Below are positions 6,096 to 17,516 of a DNA stretch of 21,131 bases, piece by piece. The position numbers were made by a program, and so were the translations under genes. The stretch's first letter is position 1. Every line of letters starts with the position of its first letter. Source of the stretch: a virus; the IMG/VR virus record IMGVR_UViG_3300044954_000181, positions 1 to 21,131 of that record; one strand, 5' to 3'. Below the pieces are notes generated by a model that did not search any database, was not told the DNA's origin, and saw nothing but the letters and a program-made list of their open reading frames with translations.

Positions 6096-6474
6096 GGGGC
6101 CATACTGGTTTCGAGGTAATGTGAACGAAATCTAAGGCACGTAGAAGATGATAGTTGGCTTCTTAAAAAATCTATCAAAAAGATAAACGCTAAAAACGTA
6201 ATCGCATACGACTTCACTCCGGAAGGTGTCGAGGTCGAACTCGCAGTAGCCTAAGGCTGCTCCGTAACATGAACTGACACACGATATTTTTATGTTACGT
6301 CACTTATCGTGTATGATTCACCATTTGATTTGGTTGGTGGATCGAGATAATCAAATCTAAGGAAAGGGAACTTTCGGATTTTAGTATCACTTTCACGAAA
6401 AAATAAAAGTCATAAACGTGTAGTCTTGGGTTGAGTAAATATTATCGACGCGGGTTCGACCCCCGCTGGCTCCA
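6096..6474 (+). ncRNA. ssrA: transfer-messenger RNA (tmRNA), one-piece
   Basis: Ends: 5' GGGGCCA pairs with 3' TGGCTCC (6467-6473) through a G3-U70 wobble, the alanyl identity element, with discriminator A73 at 6474. CCA is not encoded. The T arm is GCGGG-TTCGACC-CCCGC at 6450-6466. P2 is visible as CTAAG...CACGT with ACGTG...CTTGG. The tag reading frame runs from resume codon GCT (6189) to TAA (6252-6254) and encodes Ala then KNVIAYDFTPEGVEVELAVA, ending in the small hydrophobic residues typical of protease-recognised tags. Just after it lies a perfect interleaved pseudoknot: GTAACAT (6264-6270)/ATGTTAC (6292-6298) and ACACGATA (6279-6286)/TATCGTGT (6305-6312). tmRNA with SmpB and EF-Tu rescues stalled ribosomes and tags incomplete proteins for degradation. 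The length of 379 is normal. No smpB gene is seen in the window. Confidence 0.96.
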
Positions 6475-8853: not shown

Positions 8854-8881
8854 GATTTCATACTTATGTGTATAATAAGTA

Positions 8882-10126
8882 ATGCCTAATAGTCAGCTGT
8901 ACAATTTAACTCCGATAAGCAACTCAATAAGTCCTGCTGATTTATTTGTGGTTGTAGATAAAAGCAAATTGACCACCCATAAAATTTCATTGGGGGAGCT
9001 TTCTGATTCTATTGATGGTGCTATATTCCTCTCTTCCAGCTATTCCAACTCTAGTTCTTTAACCAATCCTACTACACAGGTATCAGTGAGTCTTTCACAG
9101 ATGGTTATATCGTCTTCGTATACATTCGGATTGAGTGGATCTAACGCTTTCGCTTGGTCTAGCAGCAATGCTTTTAATTGTAATCATTGTTGGACAAATT
9201 TTGACACCTTTGAAATAACCGCAAGCGATGATAGTCGAGACGTATATCAATTTCCAAATGGTGCAGGATCGATAGAAATACGGCCAAAACATCCAACAAG
9301 TATGACCGGTGTTTATGTGATAGAACCACTAAAATACTATGACGAATTGGGTGCAAAAATAATCACGTCTTCAGCAACAAGTTACCAAAGATTATCTGCC
9401 CGACAATATGAATTTGAAATATATAGAATCAACGCAAATGATCGCCGAACTAGATTTAATGTAACACTGATTGGGTCGGTGAATAGTGCGGGAACAAAAT
9501 ACGGCACAATTGTTCACTACTATTCCGGCGGAGCGTTATACGCAAATGGACAATCCCCAACTGGGTCAGTAACCGCCATAACTTCATCCGTTGTAACCAA
9601 TGCATCCTTTGCTCACCTATTAAACACCGTAATAAGTTCTTCCATTACGACATTTGTAAACAGCGCAAGTGGGTCAGGAATTTTTTCCCTTTCCTCCTCG
9701 TATGCAAGTAGGTCTTTGTTTTCACAAACAACTTCTACCTCAGAAACATCTTCCAATGGACCTCTTCCAGGCATGATACTGCTATATGCCGGAGTCAGAG
9801 TGAGTGGGTCTTCTAATTGGTATAATTGCGATGGAGGATTGTATAATACTAACTATACAGAACTTTCTGCGTCTCTCCAATCCAAATTCACAGATGGAGT
9901 TTCTTCTAATAGATTGCCTAAACTGTCCTCTAATTTAAATTCTGGTTCCGGTCCATTCAACCAGCAAGTTTATATATCACAGTCTTCGTTAGGACACCCA
10001 ACGAACGATCAAATAAGTCAGTCATATGGAACGGGAACGATAGTTGGTGTATATACTGAAGGTACAGTTTATGGAACCGACATAGGTTCGTCAGGAAGCG
10101 CGTTTTATTACAACATTAAAAGATGA
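8882..10126 (+). CDS. tail fibre protein with C-terminal tail-collar domain
   Basis: A 414-residue protein. The N terminus (ISPADLFVVVDKSKLTTHKI at about 17-36) matches the virion-attachment start common in marine T4-like fibres and recurs in the next gene (ISSEDLFLVQD). The stalk is rich in Ser, Thr and Asn (SSSYSNSSSLTNPTTQ; SGIFSLSSSYASRSLFSQ). From about residue 292, GPLPGMILLYAGVRVSGSSN, then WYNCDGGLYNTNYTEL, is a phage tail-collar (T4 gp12-type) domain, and the protein ends FYYNIKR as collar proteins often do. It probably forms trimers at the baseplate and recognises the host surface. Start: TATAAT lies five bases upstream of the ATG, with no Shine-Dalgarno sequence. Confidence 0.85.
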   Translation: MPNSQLYNLTPISNSISPADLFVVVDKSKLTTHKISLGELSDSIDGAIFLSSSYSNSSSLTNPTTQVSVSLSQMVISSSYTFGLSGSNAFAWSSSNAFNCNHCWTNFDTFEITASDDSRDVYQFPNGAGSIEIRPKHPTSMTGVYVIEPLKYYDELGAKIITSSATSYQRLSARQYEFEIYRINANDRRTRFNVTLIGSVNSAGTKYGTIVHYYSGGALYANGQSPTGSVTAITSSVVTNASFAHLLNTVISSSITTFVNSASGSGIFSLSSSYASRSLFSQTTSTSETSSNGPLPGMILLYAGVRVSGSSNWYNCDGGLYNTNYTELSASLQSKFTDGVSSNRLPKLSSNLNSGSGPFNQQVYISQSSLGHPTNDQISQSYGTGTIVGVYTEGTVYGTDIGSSGSAFYYNIKR

Positions 10127-10152: not shown

Positions 10153-11613
10153 ATGGCAAATAAGAGAATATCAGAATTAAGCAGCCTTAATGGAAACATT
10201 TCCTCGGAAGATTTGTTTTTGGTACAAGATGTCTCCCCAATCTCTGAATCCAAAAGTGTTACTTGGGGGTATCTTTCCCAAGTTATTGCTGCTTCGGCTT
10301 CAGTGGAGTCTTCCAGTTATTCACTTACGTCGTCTTTTTCTCAAAGAATTTTGTCGGCAAGTTGGGCATCTTCCAGCATCACGTCAAGTTTTTCTCTCGC
10401 CGGTAGCGGCAGCGGCATATATGCTATAAGTTCAAGTTGGGCCGCAAGTTCGTCATACTGTTTGACCGCGAGCTTCGCATCGGGGTCAGGAGTATTTTCT
10501 TATTCCGGTTCATATGCATTTACAAGTAGTTATTCTTTGAGCGGGTCGACTTCGCTGACCGCTTCCTACTCTATATCTGCAAGTTATGCTTCAGGAAGTA
10601 ACATAATTGCAAACAGTAGCAGTTTTGCCCACAGTTCAAGTCATGCAGCCACTGCAAAAAATTCAAACTATTCATCTAACGGAATAGAAACAGGATATAT
10701 GGTTCTTTATGCGGGACAAGATACCTCAGCCATAGAATCTACCGGAAACTATTTGGTCTGCAATGGTCGGGACGTGTTTGTAAACTCTTATCAAAATCTA
10801 TACAATTCAATAGGTAAAAAATTTGGGTTTTATCCGGAACTAACAATCACTGCTTCTAGGTCGTCTACAACCCAAGCAATGAGATGTGAGGTATATCACG
10901 ACAATGTAAATATTTATGGATGGGCACTGAGTTCCGGTATAGTTGCATTTCATACTCAATCTTTCGGTGATATAAAAGGACTCTTCACCATAACCTCAAT
11001 AAAAGCAGGAATAAGCGGGTCTTCCAAGATTTTAAGCAACGAATCTCCGTCAGCAATTTTCTACGGACTTGGTGCGGACGAATACAGATTCATAATAACC
11101 GAACAAAACACCAACAGTAGTAGCATTTACCCAGTATCTATTCATATTCTTGGAGAAAATTATACAGAAAGTGTGAATTTTGGTCCGTATTTCGCCATTT
11201 CGTTTTCTCCTAGTTCAAATGTGGCGTATAGTTCAAATTTCTCCGTCACCGACACGGTTACAGATCAAACTTCGGTCGGGTATTTAAGACAAACTTCTCC
11301 GGCAGCTATATCTCATTTAGTTCCGGCTGAACTCTTATTGCCAGATTCTCAAGCATTCACTTGTAGTATATCAAGATACAGTGGATCTTATAATGATATG
11401 CCTACCGCATCGTTGAGAATGTCTTCTCAAACACTTGAATTCTCCGGTCTTAACAATAACAGCTTTGTTCCTATCACCAAAGTATTTTCTTCATCATTTT
11501 TTATTCCGAATGTAAACGCTACGGGAAGTATACCTGAAAATTTATCTCCAAGAAATTCACAGATAACAAGTTCTGGATATAATTATGCGTTTAGATACTT
11601 AATAAAAACATAA
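10153..11613 (+). CDS. serine-rich tail fibre protein with internal collar-like domain
   Basis: A 486-residue paralogue of the preceding fibre. It has the same N-terminal attachment pattern (ISELSSLNGNISSEDLFLVQ, residues 6-25). Residues about 47-176 form a repetitive stalk of the (S/A)SxAxxSSYS type in which about 40 percent of residues are serine. A collar-like unit follows at about 179-230 (GYMVLYAGQD ... YLVCNGRDVFVNSYQNLYNS), and then a distal region of about 250 residues that probably carries receptor-binding surface. It ends YAFRYLIKT. Repeated Ser-rich stalks of this kind are seen in T4-like marine phages. Genes for glycosyltransferases follow directly, so the stalk is a candidate glycosylation target (inference). 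Confidence 0.82.
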   Translation: MANKRISELSSLNGNISSEDLFLVQDVSPISESKSVTWGYLSQVIAASASVESSSYSLTSSFSQRILSASWASSSITSSFSLAGSGSGIYAISSSWAASSSYCLTASFASGSGVFSYSGSYAFTSSYSLSGSTSLTASYSISASYASGSNIIANSSSFAHSSSHAATAKNSNYSSNGIETGYMVLYAGQDTSAIESTGNYLVCNGRDVFVNSYQNLYNSIGKKFGFYPELTITASRSSTTQAMRCEVYHDNVNIYGWALSSGIVAFHTQSFGDIKGLFTITSIKAGISGSSKILSNESPSAIFYGLGADEYRFIITEQNTNSSSIYPVSIHILGENYTESVNFGPYFAISFSPSSNVAYSSNFSVTDTVTDQTSVGYLRQTSPAAISHLVPAELLLPDSQAFTCSISRYSGSYNDMPTASLRMSSQTLEFSGLNNNSFVPITKVFSSSFFIPNVNATGSIPENLSPRNSQITSSGYNYAFRYLIKT

Positions 11614-11622
11614 TGTTATAAT

Positions 11623-12321
11623 ATGGTTACGTTACAATCTTGGCTGACAAAGACACTAAAAAATAGCTGTGGGTTTTTAAATACTGTGGATGACTCTTCC
11701 ATAGTTTATTCAAAACCCTACAGCAAAATTTCTGATGAAGTTTTTTGTGAAGGAAACTTTAGATTGAAGAATCTTGTTACGGGAGAGTTAGACGTGGTAG
11801 ATCCTGTTAAAATAATAAATGTAGAACTGTTCATGCTTAGTAGTTACAGCGAGTCTTTAAATAAGACCGTGGAGATTGCTTCAAAGAGATTTGATCCCAT
11901 TTTGTCCGAACCGTATAAGACACTTTCGAGAAAAAATGTAGAAAATATGATGTTCCTGGATGGAATGAACGTGAATTACATGAGAATATTGGATTTCATG
12001 GAATACACCTCTCCTAAAGATTTTGACTTAGTTAACTTTGACAGGTTTAAATTGAAAACTCCGACTGACGAGGAAGCAGATGAGGCATACAAAAACTTTT
12101 CTAAAATAGTATTAAAGAAATCCGAAACGATCATTTCAGATATATCTCGAAATTTAGGCAAGGAATCTGAACCAATAGTTGCTGATATAACCCAGAATGT
12201 CACCGAGTTTTTGGATAAAATACGAGAAATCCCTGTAAAAGATTTACAGAATCACTGGCCCACTCTCATAAATCCTTCTCCGTATTATTTCCACCCAACT
12301 TCGGCGGAAAGAGACGGATGA
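11623..12321 (+). CDS. unknown protein at the head of the modification island
   Basis: A 232-residue protein starting MVTLQSWLTKTLKNSCGFLN, with the ATG directly after TATAAT. The first half mixes strands and helices; the second half is mostly helical (residues about 145-205) and it ends with an aromatic/proline-rich tail (NHWPTLINPSPYYFHPTSAE). No catalytic motif, signal peptide or membrane segment is seen. Its stop overlaps the sialyltransferase-like start by four bases, so it is made together with the glycan enzymes, yet it sits just behind the fibre genes. It could be a fibre accessory protein or chaperone, or an adaptor for the enzymes; neither is supported beyond position. Confidence 0.8.
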   Translation: MVTLQSWLTKTLKNSCGFLNTVDDSSIVYSKPYSKISDEVFCEGNFRLKNLVTGELDVVDPVKIINVELFMLSSYSESLNKTVEIASKRFDPILSEPYKTLSRKNVENMMFLDGMNVNYMRILDFMEYTSPKDFDLVNFDRFKLKTPTDEEADEAYKNFSKIVLKKSETIISDISRNLGKESEPIVADITQNVTEFLDKIREIPVKDLQNHWPTLINPSPYYFHPTSAERDG

Positions 12322-12917
12322 AAAAATTGGCATTGATAGGAAACGGATGTGGGGTGTTATCTGAAAATAGGGGCAGTTATATAGACACATTTGAAACGGT
12401 CATACGGTTGGGGTCGTATAAGTTAGAGGGATTTGAAAACTTTGTGGGCACACGAACAGATTATTGTATAACCGCTCACTGGAAACTGGATTTTTCTAAA
12501 TTAGAAACTGTAAAAACTTTTGTTACATTTCCGGTATTCAATGATTATTACGACGATGTAAAAATTGAATCCATAAAATCAGAAATAGTGTCTAAACTTA
12601 ATGAACGACAACGAAACAATTTGGTTCATTTTATGAACCGACAAGATGCTTTAGATATAATGGGTTCCTACAAAGAACTTGGGCCGGTGAATATAAATTT
12701 GTCTCTTATTAATCCTAGCTTGGGTTATAGAGCAATTAGGTTGGTTATAAAACATTTTCCATCCTACGAAATACACACACATGGTTTTGATTTCTTTAAG
12801 ACCGGATGGTATTGGAAACAAGACCACAACCGAGACATAAAGAATAGGCATCCGTATTCGTATGAAAGGGCGTTGTATTCTCTGTTGGAAAAAAATGGAA
12901 GGATAAAGTTTTTATGA
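12318..12917 (+). CDS. GT29-like (sialyltransferase-family) glycosyltransferase
   Basis: A 199-residue protein with the sialylmotif pattern of glycosyltransferase family 29. The N-terminal KKLALIGNGCGVL (2-14) leads into TFETVIRLGSY...GFENFVGTRTDY (24-49), comparable to sialylmotif L. INPSLGYRAIRLVIKHFP (131-148) then IHTHGFDFF corresponds to motif S, and the His-containing end QDHNRDIKNRHPYSYERALY (168-187) corresponds to the short motifs carrying the catalytic His. Bacterial and viral relatives of this compact size exist. It would transfer a sugar, possibly a nonulosonic acid, from CMP-sugar to a glycan; the true donor cannot be read from sequence. There is no signal peptide, so it should be cytosolic. 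It overlaps both neighbours by ATGA junctions. Confidence 0.8.
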   Translation: MKKLALIGNGCGVLSENRGSYIDTFETVIRLGSYKLEGFENFVGTRTDYCITAHWKLDFSKLETVKTFVTFPVFNDYYDDVKIESIKSEIVSKLNERQRNNLVHFMNRQDALDIMGSYKELGPVNINLSLINPSLGYRAIRLVIKHFPSYEIHTHGFDFFKTGWYWKQDHNRDIKNRHPYSYERALYSLLEKNGRIKFL

Positions 12918-13807
12918 ATACGGTCTTTTCACTAAAAAACACAGGATTATCAGGCAATATATTAAAATTTCTTATATTGTTTGATTTCTGTAAAAAATCT
13001 GACCGAGAGCTTGTATTTCCGTGTTCCGATACAGAGAAGGAGATAATGCTTAGATTTGATCACGTAGATTTGGATATTGTATCTTTTCCAGGATACAATC
13101 AGACTCAAAAACAAATTTTTAACGAAAATTATAGAAAGAACGATGAAAACGAATACATCAGAGAATATTTGTTTTTTATAAATAAATGGTATTCTTTCTC
13201 TATAAAAGGTACACCAATCTACGTTTACGGAAATGTGGATTCTATTCCAAATACAAAAAACTGCACGGTGTTAATAGATTACAATGACGGGCTTTGTGGA
13301 TACAGACGTTCTTTGGGAAATGTTTACACGGGTATAAACTTCTCGCCAATTTTATCCGATAAGTTTGTTTTTAGAAATTTTACTAAAGACGTGGTTTCTT
13401 TTAATCTAAAGACCACGACTCCCGAAAATTTTGAGTCAGAAAGAAATTATTGGATTAAAGCCGTGGAAAAATATCTTCTTGAAAATCCTTCAAAGACTCC
13501 ATTCTTTGTTTCCGGAAACAACGAAATGAAAAATTCTATGTGTGAACGATTCGGAATTAAATTCTCTCCGTCGGAGGTAGAGAAAAAAATGTCAATCCGT
13601 GAATCGGGAGAAATAATAAGAGGGAAATCGTCCGATGTTATTGTTGATATACAAAACTGCGTAAATACTCGGTTTGTTTCAATAGAGGAATTGGCTAAAA
13701 CGTTTTCGATTGACGGTATTTGTCCGTGTCCGTCTCTTTTTAGAACAGGAAAAGCAGAGAAATTTGATTTACTTGTGGAGTTTTTAAAAACTGTAAATTT
13801 TACTTGA
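12914..13807 (+). CDS. putative GT-B glycosyltransferase, distantly fucosyltransferase-like (copy A)
   Basis: A 297-residue protein. No strong family signature is present, but it shares a layout with the gene at 14951. Copy A has VVSFNLKTT (about 160-168) where copy B has TSFHVKNKS, the place of the HVRRGD donor-binding loop of GT11/GT23/NodZ-type fucosyltransferases, here with Lys instead of Arg. The strand TPFFVSGNNEMKNSMCERFG follows (about 185-204), and then SSDVIVDIQNCVNTRFVS (about 229-246), analogous to the D-x-x-x-(L)-(S)-x-C segment near the C terminus of those enzymes. Cytosolic. It overlaps the GT29-like gene by four bases and ends eight bases into the convergent oxygenase gene. 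The fucosyltransferase link is inferred from motif order only. Confidence 0.45.
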   Translation: MNTVFSLKNTGLSGNILKFLILFDFCKKSDRELVFPCSDTEKEIMLRFDHVDLDIVSFPGYNQTQKQIFNENYRKNDENEYIREYLFFINKWYSFSIKGTPIYVYGNVDSIPNTKNCTVLIDYNDGLCGYRRSLGNVYTGINFSPILSDKFVFRNFTKDVVSFNLKTTTPENFESERNYWIKAVEKYLLENPSKTPFFVSGNNEMKNSMCERFGIKFSPSEVEKKMSIRESGEIIRGKSSDVIVDIQNCVNTRFVSIEELAKTFSIDGICPCPSLFRTGKAEKFDLLVEFLKTVNFT

Positions 13808-14387
13808 GTTTTATCTCCGTATTAAACTCCACATAATTCATCATCAGTATTTTTCTGTGAGTTTTTATTTTTTTCTTTTCTAATCCGTGCCAGGTGTCTT
13901 TCCCAGGATAGAAAAAATACCCAGTATTGTCTATGAAAGGCACTGTCTTTTTTACTATTAAATCAGAAGAATACAAATCGGTGCCTATATTTGGGTTTTC
14001 GTTGGAATCATTTATAAATAACAAAAAACTTACATATTTTTCCATTATATCACAGTGAGGTTCTAACCAAGATTCTCCGGTATCCTTTATCACTTCTAGT
14101 CTTAGATAATTTGGTACTGATTTATTGACATATGACTCGAATAGTTCGATGGTTTCTTTAGAAACAAAGAAATCTCTTATATTTCTGTATATCTCGTAAG
14201 TTTTACACAAATTATCGTCTATGAATATTCTATTTTTGCTGCTTGTCCGCGTTCGCGTCAACTCGTTTCCATGATTGCCGTGTGGGTCAATCGATTTATA
14301 CGCCGAAAGTTCGTCTTCATCGAAGAAGTTGGAAAAAGTGTAATGCAGGAATGGATCCGTCCACTCAAAAATAGGTTTTAATTTCAT
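13800..14387 (-). CDS. 2-oxoglutarate/Fe(II)-dependent oxygenase
   Basis: A 195-residue protein with the double-stranded beta-helix signature of the prolyl-4-hydroxylase-like 2OG-Fe(II) superfamily. The iron triad is H111-x-D113 (WLEPHCDIMEKYVSFLLFIN) and H167 (FFYPGKDTWHGLE), with R178 (THRKILMMNYVEF) positioned to bind 2-oxoglutarate. Such enzymes hydroxylate protein side chains, nucleic acids or small molecules; T4-like phages commonly carry them, substrate usually unknown. It lies on the minus strand, seven bases behind the phosphatase-like gene, so the two form an operon opposed to the surrounding glycan genes. Its end overlaps the convergent gene by eight bases. Family assignment is good; the substrate is open. 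Confidence 0.85.
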   Translation of the reverse strand: MKLKPIFEWTDPFLHYTFSNFFDEDELSAYKSIDPHGNHGNELTRTRTSSKNRIFIDDNLCKTYEIYRNIRDFFVSKETIELFESYVNKSVPNYLRLEVIKDTGESWLEPHCDIMEKYVSFLLFINDSNENPNIGTDLYSSDLIVKKTVPFIDNTGYFFYPGKDTWHGLEKKKIKTHRKILMMNYVEFNTEIKLK

Positions 14388-14394
14388 GGCAGAA

Positions 14395-14925
14395 TTATAC
14401 CTTCTCCAAGGAGTTCATAAACATATTATAACACTTCAATATATTTTTTGTTCTTTGAACGTGTGTCATGTTTTTGCCGCTTTCTGGCAAAGCATCAAGT
14501 ATAAAATTTGAACTACGATTGTTTTTTATATTTTCAATTATAAGACAGAACACCGGTGACATTTTATTCATCTTATTGCAAACTAATAATATGTTTCCTT
14601 CAAAATTTGCCAAATTTTTTAAAATTGGTGTGGTTTTTATAGCCTGGGCTCGCAACTCGTCTCTTATTTTAGAAAATTCTTCGGTTCCTTTAATTTTAAA
14701 CCTCGTTTGATATATCAAGTTTTTTGTGTCAAAAATGACATCCATTCCAATATCATTTTCCATCAAAAACTTGGCTAACGACTCGTCTTTTAATATTTCT
14801 GTGTCGATGTATTCCGTGCAAATCAACAATCTTTTTATGTTATTCTTCAGTAATAATTTGTGATTATTTGAATTAAATAAAAAGTATTTGTCTGATAAAT
14901 ATATGTTGTCTTTTATGTTGATCAC
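14395..14925 (-). CDS. dual-specificity-phosphatase-like protein, catalytic Arg missing
   Basis: A 176-residue protein. The start, INIKDNIYLSDKYFLFNSNN then LLLKNNIKRLLICTEY, follows the pattern of the cysteine-phosphatase (DUSP) fold (strand with LYLG-like turn, helix, NI-x-x-(I/L)-(L/I)). At NILLVCNKMNKMSPVFCLII (111-130) it has the strand, P-loop and helix of the HCx5R signature, but His is Val115 and the essential Arg position, six after C116, is Met122. If homologous, it should bind rather than hydrolyse phospho-groups: a pseudophosphatase. The divergent spacer to the next plus-strand gene is 25 bases with a dyad. It is co-transcribed with the 2OG oxygenase. The fold call rests on motif pattern alone. 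Confidence 0.5.
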   Translation of the reverse strand: MINIKDNIYLSDKYFLFNSNNHKLLLKNNIKRLLICTEYIDTEILKDESLAKFLMENDIGMDVIFDTKNLIYQTRFKIKGTEEFSKIRDELRAQAIKTTPILKNLANFEGNILLVCNKMNKMSPVFCLIIENIKNNRSSNFILDALPESGKNMTHVQRTKNILKCYNMFMNSLEKV

Positions 14926-14930
14926 GATAG

Positions 14931-14943
14931 TATGTAATACATA
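14931..14943. promoter_or_regulatory. 13-base dyad in a divergent promoter region
   Basis: TATGTA-A-TACATA is a perfect dyad around a central A. It lies within the 25 bases that separate the minus-strand phosphatase-like gene (start 14925) from the plus-strand gene at 14951. Both directions need a promoter here or inside the opposite gene, so a shared operator is plausible. Confidence 0.4.
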
Positions 14944-14950
14944 TTAAGTC

Positions 14951-15838
14951 ATGCAGTTTCATAACTTATCGCAGGATTATTTCGGTGTCACGACAAATTT
15001 GATGGCCTTTGTGAAGAGTCACATTTTAGCTAAACAATTTGGCGCAGATTTGGTGATGCATAATGATGCTTTAATGGGGTTGAATTTTTTGTCTGACATA
15101 TCTGTTAAAATCGAGCCAGATTTTTTCAAAGGCATCCCTATAGAACAGTTTCGTCAATTAAAGAACAAAACATCGGCGAATTTCGACTCGTTTATATGTA
15201 AAAAATTTGAATCCACGTTTAACAAATCTTGCAAATTAATTAGAGAAGTTCCAGAAAAAATCGACGGCGACACTGTGATGTTTTATGAATGGTTTCCAAA
15301 AATTCATCCAGTAAAAACCGATTCGATAAGTCTAAAGATAAACCAAACCCTTCCAATTCCATTGGAACTACACAGTTCTATAACATCTTTTCACGTCAAA
15401 AATAAAAGTCTATTAAATGTAACTTCGGATATAGAAATAACCGAATATTTGGTTGAAAGGTATATAAAAGAGTTTCACCCGAAAGAACTGTTATTCGTTG
15501 GAGGTTGTAAAGAGATGGTAGAATACTTTTCAAAAAAATATAACACCTATACCTTTGACCGAAATTATAATCGACCACTATATCACCGAGAAAAGGGCGA
15601 TATGAACAGCGTATTGTTGGACATAGTCATGTGCGCCGAGACTAATTTCGTAACCAATGACTTTCTACACGAAAGATATTGGAGAGATATAGAAGAAAAA
15701 TATAAACAACTGCCTCCTGAGTTGTGCTTTTTTAACTCTATAAGATATAAAAAGCATATTTTTGACGAAAATTTATTTATGAGTAATTACTTTGACTTGT
15801 TTGTGCTGCTCCAAAAAACTTACAAATTTTTAATATGA
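14951..15838 (+). CDS. putative GT-B glycosyltransferase, distantly fucosyltransferase-like (copy B)
   Basis: A 295-residue protein. The N terminus, FGVTTNLMAFVKSHILAKQF then GADLVM (11-36), has the shape of the GT11 start (G-x-x-N-x-x-x-x-(F/Y)...A-x-(A)-K). SITSFHVKNKS (143-153) corresponds to the HVRRGD donor loop, with His kept and Arg replaced by Lys. KELLFVGGCKEMVEYFSKKY (178-197) and LLDIVMCAETNFVTNDFL (222-239) complete the C-terminal nucleotide-binding half. It resembles copy A at 12914 in this order of motifs. It would use a GDP-sugar if the analogy holds, which would fit the Gmd gene at the left edge. Its stop overlaps the radical SAM start by four bases. Confidence 0.5.
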   Translation: MQFHNLSQDYFGVTTNLMAFVKSHILAKQFGADLVMHNDALMGLNFLSDISVKIEPDFFKGIPIEQFRQLKNKTSANFDSFICKKFESTFNKSCKLIREVPEKIDGDTVMFYEWFPKIHPVKTDSISLKINQTLPIPLELHSSITSFHVKNKSLLNVTSDIEITEYLVERYIKEFHPKELLFVGGCKEMVEYFSKKYNTYTFDRNYNRPLYHREKGDMNSVLLDIVMCAETNFVTNDFLHERYWRDIEEKYKQLPPELCFFNSIRYKKHIFDENLFMSNYFDLFVLLQKTYKFLI

Positions 15839-16686
15839 TAGCCAATTCAAAACTGGATGTAATAAGTCTCCGACAGTCTCAACTTTTGACTTCTGAAACC
15901 ATAAACGATTGTCTTCAAAGCATAACACTCAATCCCACGGAACTATGTAATAGGAAGTGTGGATTTTGCCCAAGGTCGGATGAAAAGGTATATCCGAACA
16001 GAAACTTACATATGTCAAAAGAAACGGTTGTCTCAATTTCAAAAAAACTCAAAGAGTTTAACTACCGTGGGAGATTAGGCTGGTCTGGTAATGGCGAACC
16101 GTTGTTGACCAAAAATTTTTTAGAACTCACAAAAATGGTGTCAGAAGAAAATCCGGGCTTATCGGTGCACGAAATTAATACAAACGGCGACTTACTCACA
16201 GAAAAGTTAATATCAGATATATACAATTCAGGAATAAATCACATAATAGTGAGCGTATATGACGGTGAAGAGGCGCTGAGTAAATTTAAATCGTTGTTTG
16301 AAAGATACAAGTGTGAGAGTTATACGCTTAGGGTTTCTTTTGTAAACACCAATCCAATTGGTTTCACAAATCGGGGAGGAATGGTAAAGGTCAATGTAGA
16401 TAAAATAAAAGAATTCAAAGAAAACAAATGTTATTTACCGTTCTATAAATTGGTCATAGATTGGAACGGCGATATTCTGATATGTTGTGAAGATTGGAGT
16501 AGACGAAGTAAAAGTCGTTTAAATATAAACACACATACTCTTTCAGAGATTTGGTCTTCTACAGAACTTAATGAATACAGAAACAAATTAAAAGACGGAA
16601 TTCGTTCTCTTTCTCCGTGTAATGTCTGTAATATACATGGTGAGAAGGTCGGAGAAAACCTAGTAAAAATTTTTTATGAAAAGTGA
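15835..16686 (+). CDS. radical SAM protein with SPASM/twitch-type C terminus
   Basis: A 283-residue protein. C38-x3-C42-x2-C45 in NPTELCNRKCGFCPRS is the radical SAM [4Fe-4S] site; SGNGEPLLT (84-92) is the GGEP-like SAM-binding motif, and HEINTNGDLL (112-121) a further core strand. The C terminus holds C199, C217-C218 (YKLVIDWNGDILICCEDWSR), an LSEIW-(S)-S motif (236-242) and C262-x2-C265, as in SPASM or twitch domains binding an auxiliary cluster. Such enzymes modify peptides (RiPPs), sulfatases or small molecules through a 5'-deoxyadenosyl radical. It is coupled to glycosyltransferase genes on both sides. No RiPP precursor is obvious nearby, so a protein or glycan substrate is open. Confidence 0.9.
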   Translation: MIANSKLDVISLRQSQLLTSETINDCLQSITLNPTELCNRKCGFCPRSDEKVYPNRNLHMSKETVVSISKKLKEFNYRGRLGWSGNGEPLLTKNFLELTKMVSEENPGLSVHEINTNGDLLTEKLISDIYNSGINHIIVSVYDGEEALSKFKSLFERYKCESYTLRVSFVNTNPIGFTNRGGMVKVNVDKIKEFKENKCYLPFYKLVIDWNGDILICCEDWSRRSKSRLNINTHTLSEIWSSTELNEYRNKLKDGIRSLSPCNVCNIHGEKVGENLVKIFYEK

Positions 16687-17362
16687 TGAAGTCAAAATTT
16701 GGATTGGATTGGATTCGTCTCATACCGATGTATACGATATCTGTAAATTTAGCATAGAGACTAACACTACGGAAAAGCTGCCGATATATCCTATAAATAA
16801 ATACACCGTATCGGAGTATAGGAGAAACGTCGATCCAACTGAATCCACGGATTTTTCTTTTGCTAGATTTTTTGTTCCCTATTGTTCAAATTTTAATGGA
16901 ATTTCTATTTTCTTGGACGGAGATTTCCTTTTTTTGGATGACATAAAAAATCTTCTTGATCTTTATGACGAAAGATATGCTATAATGTGTTGTAAACACG
17001 AATACACTCCAAAGACTTCAGTTAAAATGGATGGAAAGATTCAAACCACGTTTCCTAAAAAAAACTGGAGCAGCCTTATGATATTTAATAACGAACATCC
17101 AAAAATAAAAACGTTATCACCTGGCACCATAAATTTTCAATCAGGAAAATTTTTACATCAATTTAAATTTTTGGAAGACGATGATATAGGAAGTTTGCCT
17201 ATACAGTGGAATTGGTTGGTCGGTTGGTATAAAGAACCGTCAGATGGTTCTCCCAAGGCATTACATTTTACAGAAGGCGGGCCGTGGTTAAATGGATACG
17301 AAACTGTAGAATATTCCGATGTCTATAATACTTATAGAAAAAACTATGAACGAAGATTTTGA
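16676..17362 (+). CDS. GT8-like (GT-A fold) glycosyltransferase
   Basis: A 228-residue protein with a GT-A layout: STDFSFARFFVPYC (57-70), then ISIFLDGDFLFLDDI (76-90) with the D81-G-D83 metal-binding DxD motif. PKKNWSSLMIFNN follows at about 127-139, IQWNWLVGWYK at 176-186, and ALHFTEGGPWLNGYE at 195-209, where the His is in the position that often binds metal in GT8 enzymes. These blocks recur in a group of small bacterial and phage glycosyltransferases. It should transfer a sugar from a nucleotide donor in the cytoplasm. It starts eleven bases inside the radical SAM gene and overlaps the next small gene, marking the end of the modification island. Confidence 0.8.
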   Translation: MKSDEVKIWIGLDSSHTDVYDICKFSIETNTTEKLPIYPINKYTVSEYRRNVDPTESTDFSFARFFVPYCSNFNGISIFLDGDFLFLDDIKNLLDLYDERYAIMCCKHEYTPKTSVKMDGKIQTTFPKKNWSSLMIFNNEHPKIKTLSPGTINFQSGKFLHQFKFLEDDDIGSLPIQWNWLVGWYKEPSDGSPKALHFTEGGPWLNGYETVEYSDVYNTYRKNYERRF

Positions 17363-17516
17363 AAAAATGGATTCAGTAAAATTGTTGCGTGAAAGAATAG
17401 AAAAAATACTCGAACTCACCTATGAACGGTCCAAGGACGGTGACGTTTCCTTTGCAGCCATAAATTCTGTCGCAGACGATTGTATTAAACTGTTGGATTA
17501 CGTAGAGAATAAATAA
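17346..17516 (+). CDS. unknown small helical protein
   Basis: A 56-residue product from the ATG at 17346, MNEDFEKMDSVKLLRERIEK. I prefer this start to an upstream ATG at 17319 because it gives a modest overlap with the glycosyltransferase gene and a natural N terminus. It is predicted to form two amphipathic helices (about 8-29 and 35-55) joined by a KDGDVS turn, resembling small phage proteins that act as helical-bundle partners. No function recognised. The next gene begins 39 bases after its stop. Confidence 0.65.
   Translation: MNEDFEKMDSVKLLRERIEKILELTYERSKDGDVSFAAINSVADDCIKLLDYVENK

Follow-up and report, generated by a model that had tools for sequence, protein, structure and literature searches.

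What does a phage do with a run of sugar-modifying enzymes carried immediately behind its tail fibre genes? The question is raised by IMG/VR virus record IMGVR_UViG_3300044954_000181, a 21 kb record (21,131 nucleotides) of a tailed phage from water, the whole of which was analysed here and is called the window below, and in which an island at 11623-17362 lies directly behind two serine-rich fibre genes. Tentatively, and with somewhat less than even confidence, we read this island as a glycan cassette, transferable between phages, that occupies the fibre locus of a T4-like phage; its soluble enzymes would build or remodel a short sugar chain, and the acceptor would be a protein of the fibre complex, reached through a linker protein, orfA.

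Starting from PhoH, the genes run in the order FibA (8882-10126, plus strand, 19% Ser), FibB (10153-11613, plus strand, 23% Ser), orfA, a glycosyltransferase family 29 (GT29) enzyme, a transferase that we call GTx1, a 2-oxoglutarate (2OG)-Fe(II) oxygenase, a minus-strand protein, a second transferase (GTx2), a radical S-adenosylmethionine (SAM) enzyme and a GT8 glycosyltransferase; within the island, only the oxygenase gene and the adjoining gene at 14395-14925 lie on the minus strand. FibA and FibB are paralogues, each with a Pfam Collar match that stays under the cut-off (0.0014 for FibA, similarly weak for FibB). The right edge of the island is marked by a small open reading frame (ORF; 17346-17516, plus strand) that overlaps the end of the GT8 gene. 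Four-base overlaps, which an earlier note on this DNA had taken to join most of the genes, occur at three of the seven island junctions (orfA/GT29, GT29/GTx1 and GTx2/radical SAM). As a separate observation, ATACTTAT is found at 8860, 10135 and 17328 (plus strand), in each case 18-22 bases upstream of a gene, namely FibA, FibB and the small ORF behind the island; it is enriched upstream of ORFs in the clade of the window, also precedes g131 in relatives, and is a candidate promoter or translation element. The T4-type late promoter TATAAATA, with 4 matches against 2.2 expected, was uninformative.

The GT29 protein (12318-12917, plus strand) matches its Pfam family above the cut-off (1e-6), with residues 5-51 corresponding to sialylmotif L, and its profile matches mammalian sialyltransferases in the PDB (1.5e-7). 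Residues N9, S134, G136, H178 and E183 are invariant in 14 sequences; we take S134 and G136 to represent the S motif and H178 and E183 (HX4E) the VS motif, H178 being presumably the catalytic histidine. The sequence implies use of a cytidine monophosphate (CMP)-activated sugar, which may be sialic acid, 3-deoxy-D-manno-octulosonic acid (Kdo) or another CMP-sugar. GTx1 (12914-13807, plus strand) and GTx2 (14951-15838, plus strand), described in the earlier note as two GT-B/fucosyltransferase-like proteins, have no sequence match to known families, and iterated hidden Markov model (HMM) searches show them to be paralogues of one family. The AlphaFold2 model of GTx2 (predicted local distance difference test score, pLDDT, 83.5) matches 3siw best (Z 10.8 over 219 residues, root-mean-square deviation 4.9); its Z-scores against NodZ, POFUT2, FUT1, POFUT1 and FUT8 range from 8.4 to 10.8, with the next, unrelated entry at 7.0, its best 30 structural matches are all fucosyltransferases, and Foldseek also recovers NodZ (5.6e-4). 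The earlier assignment is thus borne out by the predicted NodZ/POFUT/FUT8 fold of GTx2 and, by homology, extends to GTx1; the fold is the same as in the NodZ, POFUT2 and FUT8 fucosyltransferases, but sequence identity to them is 12%. An FHVKNKS stretch suggests that a lysine may replace the conserved arginine that binds guanosine diphosphate (GDP)-fucose. The GT8 protein (16676-17362, plus strand) passes its Pfam cut-off (2.5e-6; 27.7 bits against 24.3), matches phrog_28018 (6.3e-49) and contains a DGD (DXD) motif. None of the island proteins has a membrane segment (highest 19-residue hydropathy mean 1.46), which rules out a serotype-converting system of the GtrABC type.

The oxygenase (13800-14387, minus strand) falls under the Pfam cut-off when searched alone, but a 13-member profile matches the prolyl 4-hydroxylase (P4H)-type structure 9ei6 (3e-5), and H111, D113, H167 and R178, which make up an HXD...H...R/K active site, are invariant in all 13 sequences, in agreement with its earlier naming as a 2OG oxygenase. 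For the adjoining protein (14395-14925, minus strand) no database match was found; it had been called phosphatase-like, and the dual-specificity phosphatase label was abandoned, as the arginine of CX5R is missing in nine of nine family members. The radical SAM enzyme (15835-16686, plus strand) has Pfam support (8.7e-12), as do the GT29 and GT8 enzymes named with it, and its radical cluster motif CX3CX2C (C38/C42/C45) is invariant in 21 sequences. Its further description as a SPASM protein does not hold: the SPASM domain is a seven-cysteine motif (PMC6231123) with two auxiliary clusters, the CX5CX3C...C part is missing after C265, and with four auxiliary cysteines against seven we rejected the SPASM peptide maturase. 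The closest relative is instead BtrN of butirosin synthesis (4M7T; phmmer 3e-23, profile 9e-36). The similarity is near full-length and includes both cysteine sets, with the auxiliary-cluster residues C199, C217, C262 and C265 invariant and aligned with the spacing of the BtrN Twitch domain, as well as the invariant R180 (in FTNRGG), which aligns with BtrN Arg152 (in LSNRGG); the genomic setting differs. BtrN oxidises an aminocyclitol alcohol (PMC9012708), and by its sequence the island enzyme resembles a sugar or cyclitol dehydrogenase rather than a peptide modifier.

How widely, and in what company, these genes occur was addressed by scanning 2.9 million viral contigs with GT29, oxygenase and orfA profiles. 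The first two returned identical sets of 18 contigs and the third 17 of these, orfA being recovered by HMM in the eighteenth, so that orfA, GT29 and the oxygenase were never apart in these scans; at least four contig pairs among the 18 look near-identical in coordinates, identities and scores, which brings the distinct genomes to about 14. The cassette spans two unrelated T4-like groups. In five other contigs the fibres, the island and its flanks follow one another as in the window and on the same strands, so the island is not a chance arrangement. A second, marine group of 13 contigs carries the cassette without FibA and FibB and in rearranged gene orders, and keeps orfA, GT29, the NodZ-fold enzymes, the oxygenase, the radical SAM enzyme and GT8; here a gene near the cassette matches cyanomyoviruses, and the structural genes preceding it contain 7-12% Ser where measured. 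In 50,697 named phage records, tblastn found no match to orfA, the oxygenase or GTx2, and one weak match to GT29.

The most constant member of the island is orfA (11623-12321, plus strand), which the earlier description had left out. Its C-terminal motif, WPTLLNPSP or more generally WPxLLxPxP, includes W212, P213, P218 and P220, all invariant in the family alignment. A looser form, WPxLxPxP, is found at the same place in proteins of other fibre-side sugar islands (contigs L033, L035, L036 and L048), and in a set of 1,095 ORFs of comparable length only orfA-type proteins have it. Where islands were read in detail, orfA or a motif-bearing relative comes first, directly behind a structural-type gene and ahead of the first enzyme, and no case of orfA without sugar enzymes was found. 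The protein belongs to no Pfam family; its predicted model combines a small beta domain with a long helix (pLDDT 72), and no significant match came from searching viral and PDB libraries by fold. Any likeness between its C-terminus and tail-fibre assembly chaperones is no more than an impression.

What might such a set of enzymes make? The chain would be built in the cytoplasm by soluble enzymes, probably late in infection, because the cassette lies among late structural genes. With the donors and step order that we infer, GT29 would contribute an acidic sugar activated with CMP, the pair of NodZ-fold enzymes would contribute deoxyhexoses and GT8 a hexose, the BtrN-like enzyme would oxidise a sugar or cyclitol alcohol to a ketone, and the oxygenase would hydroxylate the acceptor or a sugar. 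The product would be an acidic, deoxyhexose-containing, partly oxidised glycan, carried by a fibre-complex protein with orfA as dedicated adaptor or acceptor.

The donor logic fits such a glycan, since CMP-sugar genes accompany homologues of the cassette and a dehydratase gene starts the window. The island on L029 adds a cytidylyltransferase (1.6e-38) and an aminotransferase, and in cyanophage S-SCSM2R (PQ898602) a GT8 homologue (43% identity) lies with KdsA, KdsB, an amidinotransferase and two 2OG oxygenases; unlike in the window, that sugar island is not beside fibres in the stretch seen, and the BtrN-like gene is elsewhere in the genome. Bacterial relatives of the radical SAM enzyme, many of them from SAR11 and some from Prochlorococcus, have methyltransferase, aminotransferase and epimerase genes around them; one (L104) has two NeuB genes, an Epimerase_2 and a cytidylyltransferase for neighbours, another (L136) adjoins a GT8 gene, and in Bradyrhizobium nitroreducens (L102:6872-8490) a BtrN-like radical SAM gene is preceded by an aminotransferase and directly followed by a GT29 gene. 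Aminotransferase-type genes also recur with BtrN-like radical SAM genes in phage sugar islands (L017:5483-6409, L029:11547-12461 and L217:10588-11280). A different island, on L048 (464-11592), precedes genes related to those downstream in the window and comprises an orfA relative, GT8, a DegT aminotransferase, an epimerase, a PIG-L deacetylase, a radical SAM enzyme and a DXD transferase. The dehydratase, a GDP-mannose 4,6-dehydratase whose N-terminal part lies at the end of the contig (2-241, minus strand; TIGR01472 3.3e-33, Pfam 1.5e-27, PDB 1.1e-29), could possibly feed GDP-6-deoxyhexose to the NodZ-fold enzymes; its GC content is 60% at the contig edge, against about 40% just inside, so this gene start may be an assembly chimera or a recent import.

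Whether the glycan is destined for the fibres is a question on which relatives with altered loci bear. Contig L078 keeps both fibres and has no island, the small edge ORF starting 8 bases after the FibB stop; since in the backbone tree it is the sister, at 100% support, of L003, which carries the island, the island would most simply have been lost. DNA identity between the two is 83-84% on both sides of the block. Within it, starting some 170 bases into FibA and running to where FibB ends, the fibres are 58% identical in protein sequence, against 90-96% in most flanking genes, a drop at the block edges which argues that fibres and island changed as one block. Fibre trees are weak here (FibB sets L078 outside the island carriers at 77% support only, FibA does not resolve it), so the case for loss draws on the backbone tree and the sharp fall in identity. 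The slot behind the fibres is likewise empty in L089, and in L086 it holds a single N-acetylglucosamine (GlcNAc)-type transferase (L086:13402-14349, PF11397, 3.8e-68).

Several observations weigh against the fibre complex as the destination. Physical linkage alone could account for the joint exchange in L078, whose fibres contain 19.0 and 21.8% Ser, the same as in island carriers and unchanged without the island. L022 and L023 are 92-95% identical in the radical SAM enzyme, the oxygenase and GT8 and 38% identical in the preceding structural gene, and conversely L017 and L022 share a 91% identical structural gene and enzymes of 51-83% identity. Tracking of the structural gene by orfA, hinted at by L022 and L023, was not significant (Mantel p 0.21, seven contigs), and the enzymes showed no significant correlation with that gene either, while covarying among themselves (radical SAM with GT8, rho 0.69, p 0.014); this reassortment and the enzyme-only correlation indicate a link with the fibre locus and not with a particular fibre. 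Furthermore, the structural genes that precede the cassette in the marine group have no match in PHROG, nor any database match as fibres, and we infer that they are fibres from their position and, in the aligned cases (L016, L019, L022 and L023), from an N-terminus that is conserved while the rest varies. The earlier note's tie between a glycan-modification island and the fibre locus therefore stands, and its decoration of a serine-rich stalk does not, given the equally Ser-rich fibres of L078 and the 7-12% Ser genes ahead of the cassette elsewhere; the association that it expected between fibres and island is broken in part, by L078 and by the 13 marine contigs, and upheld in part, by the block exchange in L078 and the place of orfA at the junction.

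The acceptor is consequently the least certain element of our interpretation. In the Skp1 pathway of Dictyostelium, a P4H-type oxygenase and several transferases act on one small protein, and this prolyl hydroxylation-glycosylation offers a parallel that we treat as a lead only. Carried over to the phage, orfA itself would be the acceptor: the oxygenase would hydroxylate a proline of WPTLLNPSP, the transferases would extend a chain ending in a CMP-derived acidic sugar, the BtrN-like enzyme would oxidise one sugar, and the product on the fibre complex would alter receptor binding. We consider this specific version rather unlikely, and put it forward because orfA, GT29 and the oxygenase were never apart in the scans, the motif prolines are invariant, and WPxLxPxP proteins head other fibre-side islands. 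Of these, L033, L035 and L036 hold a possible 2OG gene (by HXD...H...R pattern only, with no Pfam match); counting against orfA as acceptor, the L048 island keeps the motif but yielded no recognisable 2OG gene.

The same enzymes could instead repaint the host during infection, altering a surface glycan such as the lipopolysaccharide core, an O-unit or a capsule precursor at the inner membrane face, and so keeping competitors or released sibling phage from adsorbing. This is a serious if somewhat doubtful possibility: a host-glycan role has been proposed for comparable pelagimyophage islands, with GT8 the commonest family (PMC7029224), the bacterial radical SAM relatives sit in surface-polysaccharide-like settings (L104 with sialic-acid-type genes), and the sets of enzymes are reshuffled irrespective of the structural gene. 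It leaves orfA, ever-present and at the fibre junction, without a role, however, and none of the genes was recognised as a membrane transferase, flippase, polymerase or initiating enzyme, in keeping with the lack of membrane segments. Because orfA is tied to the enzymes by its presence and to the fibre locus by its position, we slightly favour a fibre-complex acceptor over a host surface glycan. That the cassette is no more than passing cargo at a locus prone to recombination, functionally unconnected with the fibres, would agree with the empty slots of L078 and L089, the lone transferase of L086 and the marine reassortment, but is unlikely in view of the strict co-occurrence of orfA, GT29 and the oxygenase in two groups and the fixed place of orfA.

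Other chemistries are less probable still. The kinship with BtrN, the PIG-L deacetylase, DegT aminotransferase and sugar epimerase of the L048 island, and an annotated amidinotransferase in phage CPt10 would suit a diffusible modified sugar or aminocyclitol-like metabolite, an improbable product nonetheless for a set with four transferases in a window where no exporter or cyclitol synthase was recognised. Direct modification of the fibre protein by the radical SAM enzyme and the oxygenase, through peptide cross-links and hydroxylation with the sugars secondary, could appeal to the adjoining fibre genes, to the peptide maturases among SPASM/Twitch enzymes and to weak NCBIfam matches to maturases of ribosomally synthesised and post-translationally modified peptides. 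All these matches are far under cut-off, though, BtrN is by far the best structural relative (3e-23), there is one auxiliary cluster only, and the bacterial relatives lie among sugar genes; we hold this very improbable, and the radical chemistry on the fibre envisaged in the earlier note is unlikely because the closest relative, BtrN, acts on an aminocyclitol. Phages also combine oxygenases and transferases for DNA hypermodification, the oxygenase hydroxylating a base that the transferases then glycosylate. Here this seems exceedingly improbable, as the 2OG protein is P4H-type by profile, no base-modifying partner was recognised in the window, and the genes are neighbours of fibre genes and are accompanied by orfA in every case.

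The earlier statement that such a combination is not a known phage pathway was too strong, since gene clusters of this kind have been published for pelagimyophages (PMC7029224) and Campylobacter phages (PMC2853527). The pelagimyophage account describes a host recognition cluster between VrlC and gp14 with fibres, GT8-type transferases and radical SAM cassettes; like the window, the pelagimyophage and cyanomyophage cluster has a hypervariable fibre-side slot with several transferases, GT8 prominent among them, and radical SAM genes, for which a host-surface role was proposed, whereas GT29, NodZ-fold enzymes and a linker protein go unmentioned in the passages considered (PMC7029224). Radical SAM modules that can be exchanged are found in Campylobacter phages (PMC2853527); in the radical SAM/amidinotransferase modules of CP220 and CPt10, a radical SAM homologue 28-30% identical to that of the window lies downstream of baseplate-type genes, but, unlike the window, these phages have many radical SAM genes and no annotated GT29 or NodZ-fold enzyme. 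One phage announcement proposes capsid glycosylation from transferase genes (PMC11256854), and a literature search joining phage, tail fiber, glycosyltransferase, radical SAM and oxygenase found nothing. Hypervariable islands that adjoin fibre genes and combine transferases with radical SAM genes were thus already known (PMC7029224); new, as far as the libraries searched show, are orfA, GT29 and 2OG as a strict unit, the assignment of enzymes as NodZ-fold and BtrN-like, the motif of the linker protein and the joint exchange of island and fibres as a block.

Elsewhere, the window holds a complete tmRNA (transfer-messenger RNA) gene (6096-6474, plus strand) with the tag AKNVIAYDFTPEGVEVELAVA and, at 2430-2533 and 2484-2849, an exact 52-base tandem duplication next to stretches without a clear gene that are 83-86% conserved at the DNA level in relatives.

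For T4-like phages, the finding is that two unrelated groups have in common a compact co-inherited set of orfA, GT29, a NodZ-fold transferase, a 2OG oxygenase, a BtrN-like radical SAM enzyme and GT8, with orfA as a marker protein for the junction between fibres and island. Phage radical SAM enzymes thereby gain a likely sugar substrate in place of a peptide, and the general statement that fibre islands contain transferases is sharpened into a testable question: whether such phages put the sugars on their own fibres or use them to repaint the host.

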